This document shows, piece by piece, positions 50,745-64,000 of a stretch of DNA of 64,000 nt; position 1 is the first letter of the stretch; the number at the start of each line of letters is the position of its first letter. Below the pieces are notes generated by a model. The model was not told the DNA's origin. It did no database searches and saw only the letters and a program-made list of their open reading frames with translations. The position numbers and the translations under genes were made by a program. Source of the stretch: Adineta ricciae (lineage: Eukaryota > Rotifera > Eurotatoria > Adinetida > Adinetidae); NCBI GenBank assembly GCA_905250025.1, contig CAJNOJ010000191.1, positions 1-64,000 on the forward strand. The letters are read 5' to 3'.

Positions 50745-52595
50745 ATGTCTTCGAATGATAGAAAGGCTCTGCCAAAAGTTAGACCATCTCGCTGGGGACA
50801 CCCATTAATATTCGTTGCTGCTGCAATCGGTCTTGCTGGTTCAAGCGCTGTATTTTATGCCCAAATTCGTGCTCGACAGAAAGCTCGAAGTATAGACCAA
50901 ACATCTCTCCATATTTTCTTCATCTACGAACCTGAAATTTAGACCTCTTTCTTCAAGCGGCATTTTATCAAGAAGCACTTGAATTAACACATGGTTATAA
51001 ACCAATCACAGATAGATTAGTCGAACCTATCGAACCGCTTCAAATTGATACGACAAGTAAATTTAATATATTGTCATCTCTTGGTGCACAAGTAAGTTCA
51101 AATCTTGCACGATACTTTCGTTTTCTTATGATAATGAAAATAAATTCTATACATATACTAATCCGACTCAGTGTAAAGTTCAAGGAACAGGGTCATTTGT
51201 TCATTCTAGATAAAATATCTAAAATCTCTGTAGAAAAATGCAACACGATGACGTCATTTGGTCAGTTCTCAACGGACAATTTTGTTCGTATAAACAACAG
51301 AAGAGTAAAACTCAAATCTTTTGCTCAAATGAATACAGTCTAACTGGCTTGTGCGATCGTCGTTCATGTCCATTAGCCAATTCTCAGTACGCAACTGTTC
51401 GCGAAGAAAAAGGCATTCTATATCTCTACATGAAAGTTGTCGAACGTTCCCATTATCCAAAAAAACAATGGGAAAAAGTGAAGTTGCATGAAAACTACCT
51501 CCGTGCATTGAAACAAATCAATGAACACTTGATCTATTGGCCACGATTCGTTCGTCACAAATGCAAGCAACGTTTAACAAAATTAACTCAATACGTTATT
51601 CGAACTCGTCGTTTAATGTTGAAGAAAACGGCTAAACAAGAACTGGTACCAATCAAGAAGAAAGCCGAACGAAGAGAACAACGTCACGAAGACAAAGCAT
51701 TTGTCGCCGCGAATATCGATCGTGCTATTGAAAACGAATTGTTAGAACGATTGAAAAAAGGAACGTATGGTGATACATATTCATTTCCAATGAATACGAT
51801 TTCGAGTGAGTGATGACGAGAAAGTTTTCATGTAAAATGAACAAATTGAATTTGTTTTGTAGTGGAAGAAGATGAAGAGGAAGAAACGGAAAGTGAAGAT
51901 GAGGAAGAAAAAGAAAAAGAAGACGATGATGAAGATGAAAATGAAGAAGTCGAATACGTAGAAGATTTCGAAGAAAGTGATGCAGAAGATATTGAAGATA
52001 TGGGTGATTTCGATGAAGACGAAATCGAAGAAGAACTTGCGAAAGCACTTCCTTCATCGAAGAAACGCAAATTGGAACTTGAATATGAACCAGTAGCAAC
52101 AAAGAGTAAAGAACGTTTGAAACACCGACGACAAGCGTCATCAAATAGCACTAAGGCGTGATTTACTCTTTTTGTTTTGTTTTCTGTGTTAAATAAAAAA
52201 CAACAGCATCCAAAGAAATCGAATTTACTGGTTTTTTTGCTTACAAAAAAAAGATATATCATTTAGGTCGAAATACCAATTCGTGGCAGTGAACGATCCG
52301 GAATCATTTACTGTTATGCAACAAGAGACTCAGTTGATGATGAGTAAGTCATATTTCCAAAGCAAATACGTCTCTTTTCCTTTCCATTGGTGGTATGATC
52401 ATTAAATAGCGATTAGTAGTGTTTGATACTATTTAATACGAAGGCCGAATACGAAAGAAAAAACCGAGTTATATTTTTTTCTTGTTTAGGTGGCACGTAG
52501 ACAAACTTGAATTCAAAGGCATTAATCAATCTGAACGTTATATGTTCTACGATCGTGAATTACGCCGAAATCTTTCAGCGCCAACCACAAAATAA
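50745..52595 (+). CDS. coa1: COA1-like mitochondrial assembly factor, host of a nested gene
   Basis: Four exons (50745-50889, 50943-51091, 52267-52343, 52490-52595) join in frame to give 158 residues, close to the usual COA1 length of about 146. The N-terminus is basic (KVRPSRWGH) and followed by one membrane helix ([21 protein letters not shown]) and an amphipathic segment ([17 protein letters not shown]). The C-terminal half ([28 protein letters not shown]) follows the COA1/TIM21-like fold pattern of IPVxGxxxxG and WxLDxxxLEL. COA1 is an inner-membrane protein helping build cytochrome oxidase and complex I. Its third intron-spanning gap (51092-52266, 1175 bp) contains the complete MAK16 gene on the same strand. 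The stop lies 87 bp before the EOGT start. Confidence 0.75.
51238..52161 (+). CDS. mak16: MAK16 ribosome biogenesis factor, nested in a COA1-like intron
   Basis: Two exons (51238-51805, 51863-52161; intron 57 bp) encode about 288 residues. MAK16 is a nuclear/nucleolar factor needed for 60S ribosomal subunit assembly. The sequence follows the family closely: it starts MQHDDVIW, has the four-cysteine zinc-binding block ([12 protein letters not shown]), [12 protein letters not shown] and [13 protein letters not shown]. It continues through [15 protein letters not shown], a basic coiled region, [19 protein letters not shown], and the typical long Glu/Asp-rich tail followed by a basic end. The whole gene sits inside an intron of the COA1-like gene. 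An acceptor-like CTCTGTAG lies five bases before the ATG, and a poly(A) signal at 52192 lies inside the host intron. Confidence 0.96.
52192..52197 (+). terminator. poly(A) signal of MAK16 within the host intron
   Basis: AATAAA 31 bases after the MAK16 stop and 69 bases before the acceptor of COA1-like exon 3. Its use would give a mature MAK16 message and stop the host transcript, so choice between the two must be regulated or kinetic. Confidence 0.55.
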
Positions 52596-52682: not shown

Positions 52683-54597
52683 ATGTTGTTCATATGCTTA
52701 TTGACGTTCCTCGTCACTATTTCCGTTGATGGTTACAAATGGTCTGATCTTGACATTCCTTCCGAACATTCAACCTACTTCTTCACAAATAATCCTTCGA
52801 TTCATGCCCAATGCCTCGCGGACAAAGATCAATGTCCCTATTACGAACAAGCTCGAAATCTTCCGTCACCGGATGTGGCTTGTTGGGGTTATGAACCCGA
52901 TTGTAAAAATATTGCTCCGCTTGTTCAATGTCCTGAGGATAGTCGTGGGTGGACCAAGACAAAAGAAGAACAATTGGAACAGTTTTGGCGTACAGCTGAT
53001 TTTGGTTATATCGCAGAAAAACGCAAGGAATTGAGAGAAATGTGTTCACCATCACCATCGTCTTCATTAGAATGCGTCGATCATTTACGTTTTTGTCGAG
53101 CTAGAAATATCTACATCGATTTTCGACATACAGAAACATCGAAACATCACAATCGATATCGAGAAGATATTCTCAAATTCGGTGATATTGGCGGTTATTG
53201 CAAATTACATCACGATGATTTCATGAAAAACGGTGATCACAAAAGTCCATTGCAAAGTTGGTTTTCGGAATTGCAAGTATTCAAAGAAATCAATCAAACC
53301 GATTCGTTCCAATGTGATCTAACCATAACAAAACCAACGATATTTATCAAACTTGATAGTGGCTATAACATGTACCATCATTTTTGTGATTTCATCAATT
53401 TATACGTCTCTCAACACATGAATAATACATTTACAAAAGATGTACAGATTATCCTATGGGATACGAGTAGTAATGATTATTGGAGTTTCTTTTCATCAAC
53501 GTGGAATGCATTTACATCGAACCGACTGATACATATAAAAGAATTCGAAGGCAAACGTGTATGTTTCGAAAATGTCGTTTTTTCGTTTCTTGCTCGGATG
53601 TTTTTCGGTAAGACAAAACTTCATATCTCCATTTATTTCAAAACCATAATTTAGGTTTCTATTATAACATGCCACTGGTACCAGGATGTACCCAAACAAG
53701 TCTCTTTCGTTCGTTTCAGCAATACCTAATCCACCGACTCCGAATCCCACAGTTAGGTCCATTGAAATCCAATCAAATACGTATAACATTACTGAATCGA
53801 ACGACGCAATTTCGTCAGATTCTCAATGTCAATGAAATTGTTGAACACTTGAGAAATATCTCCAGTATTGGAAATAATGATTACCTTATCAACGTGGTGG
53901 ATTATAATATCAACATGCCATTTATTCAACAATTAAATATTACTCATAATACAGATATTTTCATGGGTAAGTATTGTACAAGACAGACAACATTTGAATA
54001 TATCTACTTATGTTTTAGATACTTCATGAATAAGTAAATATTTTTCAATATTTGTCAGCTGCTTTAGCTAAGATTGAACACTGTATTTGAAATACTCATT
54101 CAGTTAACACTAATCACCCGATTGAGAGATAAAGTTTGATTGTGTTTTTGCATGGATGATTACCCATTGACAATGAATGAATGGTTTTCGAATTCTGTCT
54201 GACTTTTCTTGTTCTTTTTTTCCTAGGAATGCATGGTGCTGGGTTAACCCATTTGCTCTTTTTACCTGACTGGGCGACTATTTTCGAAATCCATAATTGT
54301 GAAGATAAAGATTGTTATCAAGATCTTGCTCGTCTTCGTGGTGTCAAATACTTCACATGGGAGAATGAAGAGAAAGCTTATCCTCAAGATGAAGGCAAAC
54401 ATCCAACACTGGGAACTCCACATAAGAAATTCACGAATTACGCGTTTGATAAACATGAATTTGCTCATATTGTTCGCAGAATGGTTAAATATGTGAAAGA
54501 ACACGCGGCTTATCGTTCCGCGAAACGATCGAAATACTCTCAGTCGAGTTTATCAATCGAACAACACGACACAAAGTTGAGCAAAGATGAATTCTGA
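52683..54597 (+). CDS. eogt: EGF domain-specific O-GlcNAc transferase (EOGT)
   Basis: Three exons (52683-53607, 53655-53966, 54227-54597) give 535 residues, close to the human length. EOGT works in the ER lumen and adds O-GlcNAc to EGF repeats of secreted and membrane proteins such as Notch. Seen here are a signal peptide ([16 protein letters not shown]) and a cysteine-rich start ([18 protein letters not shown]). The GT61-family core follows: [14 protein letters not shown] (the NxYHxF-type block), [19 protein letters not shown] and [13 protein letters not shown]. The last residues are KDEF, a variant of the KDEL ER-retention signal. ATG at 52683 follows directly after an acceptor-like TTTTTAG. 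The gene lies between the COA1-like and MYST genes on the same strand. Confidence 0.95.
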
Positions 54598-54795: not shown

Positions 54796-56134
<1,339 letters not shown>

Positions 56135-56405
56135 GGATTTCCTCACAAATCATTGTTGTACATAGAAACAAATTATCTTATGTTTGTTTTTTCTTTGCTT
56201 CAAAGCGAACAATCCCAAAAGCAACGATTTCAATTGAAATGTAGATAAACAATTTTTGTCATTTTATTTTCATTTAACAATTCATAGAAAAAAAAATATA
56301 GGAAAAAAAACACGTATGTTCAAAAGTGTATTTTATAAATTGATGTTTCATCACCTCCATTCAATGATGTTCGTGAAATCTAAACACAAACACAATATTT
56401 ACTTT

Positions 56406-58208
56406 TCAAAGTTGAAGCTCGTCACCTACAGGATATTTATCATGATCTCCTTTTGATAATTTGATATCACAAGTCTTGAATTTGCCTTCGCGATATTTCT
56501 TTCGAGATCGGTGAATGTACATAAAGATTGCATCACATACAATGTCTGCTATGACCATAAAACCAATGCCAGAACCTGCGCGAAATGCATATTTTCAAAG
56601 AAAAGGATTCGCATTGAGGCTCACCAATTGCTACGAATAAATTCACAATATCAAATTGTCCACTTTTCCCTGTTATCGCAAGAACGAAACGTAAACCGTA
56701 GATTTTTGATAGAATTCGATAATCTTCATCATCGACGCGATATTTTTGAGCAGATCTACGAGGAAGATGATCAACAAAATCGATGGAAAGATATACACTT
56801 ACCGATAGTTAACACCGGGTGATTGTTTATCATCTCCGCTTTGCAATAAACTAAATGCAAGTGTTGGATAGCATTTATCAGCATCAAAATCAAAATTACA
56901 CGTCCAATCTTGTCGAATTTCGATTAGACCGCCCTAAATCATTTGCTCACAGCTGGAATTCTTTCCAAACTTTGAATTTACCTCTCGTAGAAGAGCAGAT
57001 TTGTTCGTGTTCAATGTATTAAGAATATCACCGATTCGTAAAATGGGACAACGTGGATTTGAATGTTTATCGTATCGACATGAAAAGTTCGTATCGTCAC
57101 GAACATTTCTCCTACGATCACAAAGAATTTTCGTGAAACTTTCTCAAGCATATTCTCATCATCGAAACAAACATGTTGATATCAAACAATGTAAATGTTA
57201 CCATTGTTTTCAGATAGACTGTAAAATCTTGAATATCATTTGCGTTTGCCACATACTCACTTAATAAACAATAGAATTAGATTGGAAATATTAAAATAAG
57301 ATGTTCGTCATACACAGATCTAGTTAGTTCTTCGGGACACCAGGCATTGATTTCACAGACTTTTACTGAGGAGTTAGTTGAACTAGAAACACAATTGCCT
57401 GTATAATAACCTGAAATATGAGATTATTGTTACTATCAGATGGCTGAGGTGATTTACCAAATGTATTTGGCGTTGGTTCGTCTTGTGTACAATTGCTGTC
57501 ATGTGTGCAAAACAGTTTATCATCCATCGCCTAAGATTAAAAGAGTAATTTCATTGTCAAGAATACTTATTCGCTACTCACACTATCACAGTTTCGTTGT
57601 GTTTGATTATAAGTGACTATCTGCCGTGTAGCAATGAAAAATGCGTTATTTTCCTACAATTAATCGAAATTAAACACACAGAAAACAATATATTCAATAT
57701 TTTCCTCGTGCTTACCAATGGTGGAATCTGATATTCAGGTGTATCCCATAAATACGACGAAGATGGCTCTTAGTAATAAAAAGTACGAACTTTGATTTGT
57801 CTAAGCTCTTCTCATGCACACATACTTGTGAATTGAATGCTGTTATTTCCTGTGACTTTGGTAATCCCTTTCACTTTAATAATACTTGTTCCACGTGGCT
57901 CCTGAAATTGCTGGTAACCTTTCTTGTACCATACAATATAGCTAAAAAAAATAAACGAAACACATTACACTCGGACCGCCAATGTGTCGTCAACTCACAA
58001 TGCAATATAAACAATAATAACAAATTGAATAACACGATATACCGAAGCGACACATGTATTTGGTACTTGCACGACTTTCACAGTTGAATATGTGAGAAAT
58101 GTATCGGTAACAAAGTTTTTTAGAAATTTTTTTACTAGAATACCACCGTGAATGAAAGACTGTTGTTTGAGTCGAAGAGGATTAGTTCATCTTACTTGAT
58201 AGAGGCAT
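56406..58208 (-). CDS. p2x: P2X purinergic receptor (ATP-gated cation channel)
   Basis: At least ten short exons read from right to left. The 13-bp first exon (58196-58208, MPLS) joins FLTYSTVKVVQV, which contains the cytosolic YxTxK motif, and TM1 (VYRVIQFVIIVYIAL). The ATP-contact lysines lie in GTSIIKVKGITKVT (about 57850). The cysteine-rich head reads KLFCTHDSNC, TGNCVSS and KVCEINAWCP, followed by NPRCPILRIGDIL (about 57060), QDWTCNFDFDADKC and the NYR block near 56820. YGLRFVLAITGKSGQFDIV then leads into TM2 (GSGIGFMVIADIVCD) and the basic juxtamembrane tail with KKYREGKFK. P2X receptors are trimeric plasma-membrane channels opened by ATP. Several introns are small, and exact borders between 56900 and 57750 are approximate. 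It converges with the MYST gene. Confidence 0.92.
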
Positions 58209-60377
58209 CTCTGTTTCTTGAGTGATGATAAGAAAATGACACAACAAACCGGAGATAAAGCGAATTGTACCCGTAGATTAGAAAAAGAATTTTATTGTTG
58301 AGAGAAGCGAAATGGTATTTCGAATGGCATAAATGATGGTTTGTTCTAAAACAAGCATGAAGAATGAAGACAGACAAGATTAGAAGCATTCCATGCTAAA
58401 ATCAACTCATTCACATCTGTTTCGACTCAACGATTGTACCGAGAAAATAGGGCAAACGAGGTTATTTCTGATTATAAAAAGGGCACCATCAGACTTCGTT
58501 GATTTTAGATAATAGACAGAAAAAAAGTCCAACAAGAACGAAGGGTAATGGTATATACGTATTCCGCGTTCTCAGTGTCACAACATGCCTAAATTAACTC
58601 ATACATCATTCCTTACAGGTCAATAAATTCGATTTCAAGGGGGGATGAATAACTATTGTTTGGATTTTTCAATGAATATACCCATCACGAACCGTAAAGG
58701 GTACAAAATCTCGGGTGGCATATGTTTTAGCGTAAAGATAATTGAGAATCACATTTGTTAGTTGAGTAAGTAATATTGATTTGTCTGTGCAAAATGCAGT
58801 CTAAATGCATAAATCTGAAGATCTTGATTATTTCCATGTCCATAATCATTAACAGAGATTTGTACAAGTTGATTGGTAATCTCTTAACTTTTGAATCGTG
58901 AGCCGTAAACTATGACAGAAGTGAACTAAGTCGAAACAGTGCGACTTGTGAGCCTAGAACGGAGATATTTCTACGATGTACAAGTCAAAAGTGTTTCTAA
59001 TCAAATCATCGTAACAACAGATTGAAAATCAATCTCCCCACCACTCGATTCAAATATGAAGAAATCCGTCCTCGTGCGCCGTGCAAGTATAACTATTTTC
59101 TTCGACCAAATAACTCTGCATATTATCATGTATTCTTTTAAACTAAGAAAAGCAATAGTTAAAAACTAGATTATAATTAACCATGTATACATTCTACAAT
59201 TGAGACGTGAATGTAGAAACTTAACCAAATTTTCTAACAATAACGACATTTTTGCAATACATCTGCTATCATATACACATCATGATCGTTTTACCCATCG
59301 AAAATTCTTTCTAAGTCATTTGATACAGATGGATAGCTAGACTGTTGCAATATTATCCCTAATTCTTTCTATTGATACTATGGCGATTCCATTATCACTA
59401 AAAGATTGGCTTGAGGGTCATTTTGACAAATATGCTAGAAGTCAAAGTGAATTGAATCAAATTACACTTTCGGTCATATTGCACCTCCGGATATCTGCTG
59501 ACACTGTTAATCTTTGTCTTATCCTAATGTATCTCGGCGCTCTCTGATCCGTGTCTGAACTTGACCATCAAACGAGATGAATCTCTACGCTATGTTCGAC
59601 TGCATAGTAATTACTTACCTGAATCATATACATTTCGCGTTATTACTATGGTAGAAGAACAATAAAGTCAACGAGACAAATTGACATTTTTATATCGAAA
59701 AAGAAAAATAGTCATTTCTCGTCATTTACCTTGTTGATAATTCCGAAATGCAAGTGAATAACAGCGCGGACAAAGAACGATAAAAAGCATATATCATTCT
59801 ATCGCATCAATATTCTTAATCTAACGAAATTTTATTTCTCGCAAATGCTTTCGATAATAATTTCGATGAGAAACATGCACTCAGATTGAAGTTAAAAGCA
59901 CAATCAATTATCAAACATATCAAATCCTGTTAGTAAGTCAGAATGGTTAAACAAATCATCGGCTTCAGCAATGAAATTTTCGTTTCTATATTTGCCTTGA
60001 TTCTTTTTTTCTTGAAGTTTACCCTCGCGATTCCGAACACTCGAGATGTTGATTCATTTACGTTATACTCTTTCGAGATAAGAATATTATGATATACGGA
60101 TTAACAGAAAGTATTCTTGCTCGACACAAGGGTAACTAAACACATTCCGATGGAGACTTCTTGTATTGGCTTTCTCATCGAATGGTATATAGGTCAATTT
60201 CATCCAGCAATGAGCGTCGGATAGTTTATAGTTGATTAGAGAAAGTAGATATTGAACTCAAGAGACAAAAATAAAAAGAAAGACATTGCAAATTAGACAC
60301 ACATACACCGATTGACGAAAAAGAAGGAACGTGACAACGGAAAAAAAATAAATATGACAAAGTCTTTTTCTCGTTCG
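58209..60377. other. 2.2-kb region without a recognised gene
   Basis: This is the 5' flank of the P2X gene and the 3' flank of the PKA-like gene. It is AT-rich; frames are all under 70 codons and look random. Nothing repetitive was noticed. Confidence 0.5.

Positions 60378-64000
<3,623 letters not shown>

Follow-up and report, generated by a model that had tools for sequence, protein, structure and literature searches.

A MAK16 gene nested on the same strand within an intron of a COA1-like gene in the bdelloid rotifer Adineta ricciae

The genome of the bdelloid rotifer Adineta ricciae contains a complete MAK16 gene inside the second intron of a COA1-like gene, and both genes are on the + strand. 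From its start codon to the end of its candidate poly(A) signal (51238–52197), the guest lies wholly within the host intron 51092–52266; it thus occupies a single host intron and is read in the same direction as the host. On the evidence of the sequence, the nesting of one gene within the other is genuine. The window, which is the whole stretch of 64,000 nucleotides that was analyzed, corresponds to positions 1–64000 of contig CAJNOJ010000191.1 (hereafter C191) in an assembly of 130.5 Mb comprising 1033 contigs, and coordinates given without a contig name refer to this window.

The host gene and the guest gene

The COA1-like host is composed of four coding exons on the + strand (Table 1), which join into a coding sequence of 477 nt specifying 158 amino acids and a stop codon; its introns are in phases 1, 0, and 2, and all of their borders are GT-AG. 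As judged by eye, exon 1 encodes a hydrophobic stretch near the N-terminus. The joined protein matched the Pfam family Coa1, the only family to match at E <= 1, with 21.6 bits, which is 0.4 bits short of the curated cut-off of 22; the second half of the protein alone gave 19.6 bits and the first half gave no match, and the protein of another host copy in the genome (contig C96, see below) scored 21.8 bits against the same cut-off. With a Coa1 score that falls slightly short of the curated threshold, the host is properly described as “COA1-like”. No match to the host protein was obtained in NCBIfam, and the search of solved chains returned nothing relevant to it (best E 0.65). The host is probably a small mitochondrial gene.

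The predicted protein of the guest matched two Pfam families, namely Ribosomal_L28e (125 bits, E 2.9e-36; cut-off 33.2), which accounts for the N-terminal domain, and Mak16 (80.7 bits, E 1.3e-22; cut-off 23.5), which accounts for the C-terminal region. Residues 1–257 of its 288 align with the solved chain “Protein MAK16 homolog” (E 7.8e-91), and the solved sequences that matched it are all named MAK16 (4/4). Judged by these matches, the identity of the guest as MAK16, a ribosome-assembly gene, is not in doubt. When the genome was searched with MAK16 exon 1, two places matched among the six candidates scored, and the gene is nested at both of them (C191 and the homologous contig C104); a search of prokaryotic and viral contig collections with the same exon found no relative. 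A retrogene origin of MAK16 is not supported, given that the gene carries a GT-AG intron of its own and that the search of the genome turned up no parent copy elsewhere. It is possible that MAK16 is an old retrogene, its single intron standing against a mean of 4.0–5.3 introns per gene reported for four bdelloid assemblies (PMC5916493).

An initial sequence-only reading of this DNA had joined the two halves of the host in phase across 51091/52267 with consensus splice sites, and had placed in the 1175-bp gap between them a complete MAK16 gene with its own intron and poly(A) signal. The join proved exact, and duplicated host genes elsewhere in the genome join the same exons. The size of the gap is likewise exact, the gap being host intron 2, and the gene within it was borne out as a two-exon coding sequence with a 57-nt intron and an AATAAA at 52192.

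Table 1. Features of the COA1-like host gene and the nested MAK16 gene, in window coordinates
Feature	Position	Strand	Remarks
Host exon 1	50745..50889	+	CDS with start codon; intron position and phase 1 common to the C96 and C16 copies
Host exon 2	50943..51091	+	Ends SSLGAQ; donor GTAAGT, phase 0
Host intron 2	51092..52266	+	1175 nt, GT-AG, phase 0; contains MAK16; the corresponding intron of the C96 and C16 copies measures 47 nt
Segment from host donor to MAK16 ATG	51092..51237	+	146 nt; only room for a private promoter of MAK16
Candidate (trans-)splice acceptor AG	51232..51233	+	CTCTGTAG, then AAAA, then ATG; same in C104; putative
MAK16 exon 1	51238..51805	+	CDS, ATG at 51238
MAK16 intron	51806..51862	+	57 nt, GT-AG
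MAK16 exon 2	51863..52161	+	CDS, acidic tail, stop
AATAAA, candidate MAK16 poly(A) signal	52192..52197	+	Kept in C104; use of the site predicted
CTTAC, candidate branch point for host exon 3	52240..52244	+	Kept in C104; putative
Host exon 3	52267..52343	+	
Host exon 4 and stop	52490..52595	+	

Copies of the locus and the join between host exons 2 and 3

A search of the genome with the host protein gave 14 matches at E <= 1, which fall at four loci, on C191, C104, C96, and C16. Contig C104 is 95.0% identical to C191 over 5.5 kb and has the same nesting with intact frames. The loci on C96 and C16 are more diverged: 72 of 134 aligned residues are identical between the C96 host and that of the window (the count being that for C96), and the synonymous rate for this comparison came out undefined. 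The C96 and C16 hosts are each interrupted by three introns, of 54, 47, and 59 nt, whose positions and phases (1, 0, 2) agree with those in the window, such that an empty intron 2 of 47 nt takes the place of the 1175-nt intron; when 9.9 kb at each of these two loci was searched with MAK16 exon 1 at a threshold of E 1e-3, nothing matched.

Downstream of the host, a gene order is common to the window and to C96 and C16. It covers window positions 54859–58186 and then 60296–61102 (C96) or 60296–61041 (C16), the latter limit being the end of the C16 stretch compared, and positions 58187–60295 gave no matches to either locus. The first gene in the shared order encodes a MYST acetyltransferase; in C96 and C16 it begins 91 nt beyond the stop codon of the host. 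Upstream of the host (5′ of 50745), no gene order in common with C96 or C16 was found within the stretches compared; the gene located there has a weak Arm match, under the cut-off, and one weak relative at C16:516991–517152, which lies approximately 33 kb away from the host on that contig, in the opposite orientation. Between the host and the MYST gene, the window carries a GT61-like gene at 52683–54597, whose exons after the second and whose end were judged by eye. It scored 23.4 bits against Pfam Glyco_transf_61, under the cut-off of 27, and is presumably EOGT-like; its matches within the genome were confined to C191 and C104, and the C96 and C16 loci gave none.

As judged from these comparisons, C191 and C104 together with the more diverged C96 and C16 form a duplicated (ohnologous) block of the bdelloid type, in accordance with the pattern of homologs and ohnologs described for bdelloid genomes (PMC5916493). 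On the same comparisons, MAK16 is nested in one of the two duplicated lineages and was not found in the other. Both entry of MAK16 after the duplication and loss from the other lineage are compatible with this distribution, and the finding of two matches in the genome does not separate gain from loss.

The two homologous copies also reveal how the genes are constrained. All 11 substitutions in the first 567 nt of MAK16 (exon 1) are synonymous (dN 0, dS 0.10), where 80% of random changes in this exon would be nonsynonymous, and exon 2 keeps its frame intact through 5 substitutions and 6 gap columns. The host has 18 substitutions, with dN 0.019 and dS 0.108. These values point to coding constraint that is clear for MAK16 and weaker, but real, for the host.

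The copies bear directly on whether the genes are nested at all. Without nesting, host exons 3 and 4 would belong to another gene and the host would end within the intron, or MAK16 would be a set of internal exons of the host. The frame of exon 2 remains open for 83 codons into intron 2, as far as a stop at 51343, in both C191 and C104; an open run of 84 codons occurred in 0.36% of Markov-simulated sequences, and an AATAAA is present at 51139, within the same intron. However, the host genes on C96 and C16 link the same exons over their 47-nt intron, and the Coa1 score is higher for the joined protein than for either half. Furthermore, three joins that pair a splice site of the host with one of MAK16 were tested, and each breaks the frame: that from the host donor to 51234 meets a stop after five codons, and short wrong-frame tails result when the host donor is linked to exon 2 of MAK16 or the MAK16 donor to host exon 3. 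In the frame of the retained intron, 5 of the 8 differences between C191 and C104 change the residue and 3 do not, which gives no sign of protein constraint. The open frame is probably a matter of chance, the duplicates having just a 47-nt intron at this position, and we regard the absence of nesting as very improbable. The join between exons 2 and 3 is well supported because the C96 and C16 hosts share the intron positions and phases with an intron 2 that is empty. An artefact of assembly, or a MAK16 pseudogene inserted recently, is more improbable still, and nothing was found in its favor: two separate contigs, approximately 5% apart, share the layout with frames intact in both, MAK16 exon 1 is strongly constrained, and no other MAK16 was matched in the genome. 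Chance and mis-assembly are thus unlikely, since C104 repeats the layout and the C96 and C16 hosts share the three intron positions and phases.

The predicted 5′ end of the MAK16 message

Two real genes on the same strand imply, as the sequence-only reading had stated, that a transcript is processed either as the host or as MAK16, and a single transcript could indeed serve only one of them. We consider it quite probable that the pair is expressed as follows. The host would be transcribed from its own promoter and cis-splicing would remove 51092–52266 including MAK16, which would require nothing unusual beyond the skipping of the splice sites of MAK16 itself. The MAK16 message would be made separately, with a 5′ end of its own that arises somewhere in the 146 nt separating the host donor from the ATG. 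A private promoter is the likeliest source of this end, perhaps with a spliced leader then added at the AG at 51232–51233. The message would finish at the candidate poly(A) signal of MAK16 (52192), approximately 70 nt before host exon 3.

If intron 2 were retained, the frame of exon 2 would run past the MAK16 ATG at 51238 to the stop at 51343; MAK16 probably needs its own 5′ end because the host frame of such a transcript overruns its start. The segment available for this purpose (51092–51237) differs between C191 and C104 at 4 of its 146 nt (2.7%) and at none of its last 71 nt, as compared with differences of 5.8–15.8% in nearby noncoding stretches. This low divergence suggests a constrained promoter or acceptor, although the 71-nt stretch was picked post hoc and the adjoining host exon 2 also shows just 1 difference in 149 nt. 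The MAK16 intron differs at 9 of its 57 bases (15.8%), the highest divergence among the 15 segments that were measured. Within host intron 2, an AATAAA at 51139–51144 is located upstream of MAK16 in both copies, and the frame of exon 2 has no stop before it; this motif is possibly a site of intronic polyadenylation of the host.

A search for spliced-leader genes was made with a 23-base query that we take to be the bdelloid leader. This query had no exact match in the genome; 41 sites differed from it by a single base, 3 sites by two bases, and 2 sites by three, and the reversed control matched none. Each of the four distinct leader sites that were read is followed by GTAAA. Judged by these matches, the genome carries spliced-leader genes. 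The agreement with the leader query at 22 of 23 bases and the two pairs of copies of the host locus are both in keeping with a bdelloid genome. The copies of the leader exon are clustered on a few contigs (C2, C6, C8, C43, C77, C79, C99, and C146), often as head-to-head pairs approximately 130 nt apart. In two bdelloid species, the leader has been reported on more than half of transcripts, with none found in a monogonont, and the introns of bdelloids are given as approximately 60 nt (PMC1925144).

The existence of these genes makes it conceivable that MAK16 lacks a private promoter and is cut from the host pre-mRNA by trans-splicing at 51232–51233 and polyadenylation at 52192, every host transcript then giving rise to one message or the other. 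The candidate AG is four bases 5′ of the MAK16 ATG in both copies, and the spacing downstream of the host is operon-like: the GT61-like gene starts directly after TTTTTAG, with an AG immediately before its ATG, 87 nt past the host stop, no AATAAA is present between that stop and the start of the gene, and the next gene in C96 and C16 follows at the 91 nt noted above. On the other hand, the host has a consensus donor (GTAAGT) 142 nt before the candidate acceptor, and this donor would be expected to splice to that acceptor in cis. An AG before the MAK16 ATG is by itself weak evidence, because a YAG occurs by chance within 0–4 nt before 156 of the 1434 ATGs on the + strand of the window. We therefore view the excision of MAK16 from the host transcript as unlikely. 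In its strongest form, this would be an intron-borne operon, in which trans-splicing competes with host cis-splicing and one transcript is switched between ribosome-assembly and mitochondrial messages, and this we consider doubtful. We favor a private promoter over a shared transcript, whether or not a leader is also added. The earlier proposal that the two genes constitute one transcription unit was not supported. Nor was the proposed functional link between a mitochondrial factor and a ribosome factor: the host does not need the guest, because the duplicated C96 and C16 hosts are without MAK16 in intron 2.

Comparison with known nested genes and operons

Same-strand nested genes are a known, disfavored minority. 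Of 158 nested coding genes in human, 53 are reported as tandem, and 31 of those 53 were judged to be probably separate genes (PMC3192792); among simple human nested pairs, 74.3% are on opposite strands, so that roughly a quarter are on the same strand (PMC8467205). The hosts of nested genes in animals tend to be long and to have large introns (PMC8467205). The A. ricciae pair resembles the same-strand nested genes of human, mouse, and fly in that a whole gene resides in a same-strand intron, with the attendant risk of transcriptional interference. It differs from them in that the coding sequence of the host is only 477 nt, the introns of its duplicates are 47–59 nt, and the greater part of the host locus consists of the guest.

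The mouse pair H13/Mcts2, whose two genes are on the same strand and whose nested member is a retrogene, offers a further comparison. Transcription of the nested gene has been reported to promote intronic polyadenylation of the host, a case of interference by a nested gene, and the pair is imprinted in a manner tied to DNA methylation (PMC13309782). By contrast, MAK16 has an intron and is the sole MAK16 matched in the genome, and the A. ricciae pair is compared here from sequence alone. With the trans-spliced operons of nematodes, chaetognaths, and rotifers, for which candidates in chaetognaths were defined by a spacing of less than 250 bp (PMC12460157), the locus has in common the presence of leader genes and the proximity of the host and the next gene on one strand. 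In those operons, however, the genes are arranged one after another, whereas here a gene lies inside an intron and trans-splicing of MAK16 is a candidate process.

Median intron lengths of 55–67 nt, with a minority of introns much longer, are given for four bdelloid assemblies (PMC5916493), and the main text of that report contains neither “nested” nor “trans-splic”. No report of the MAK16/COA1-like nested pair appeared among the papers listed from an open-licence literature on bdelloid nesting, same-strand nesting, operons, and trans-splicing.

Neither the genes nor the kind of arrangement is out of the ordinary, and the pair adds a new example in a compact genome. Its setting is uncommon: short introns are the rule in bdelloid assemblies, and here the guest exceeds the coding sequence of its host in size. 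The presence in one genome of the same host gene with and without a guest in the same intron constitutes a natural experiment. Comparison of the RNA of the host copies could show the cost of same-strand nesting, as well as any role of the spliced leader in tolerating it.
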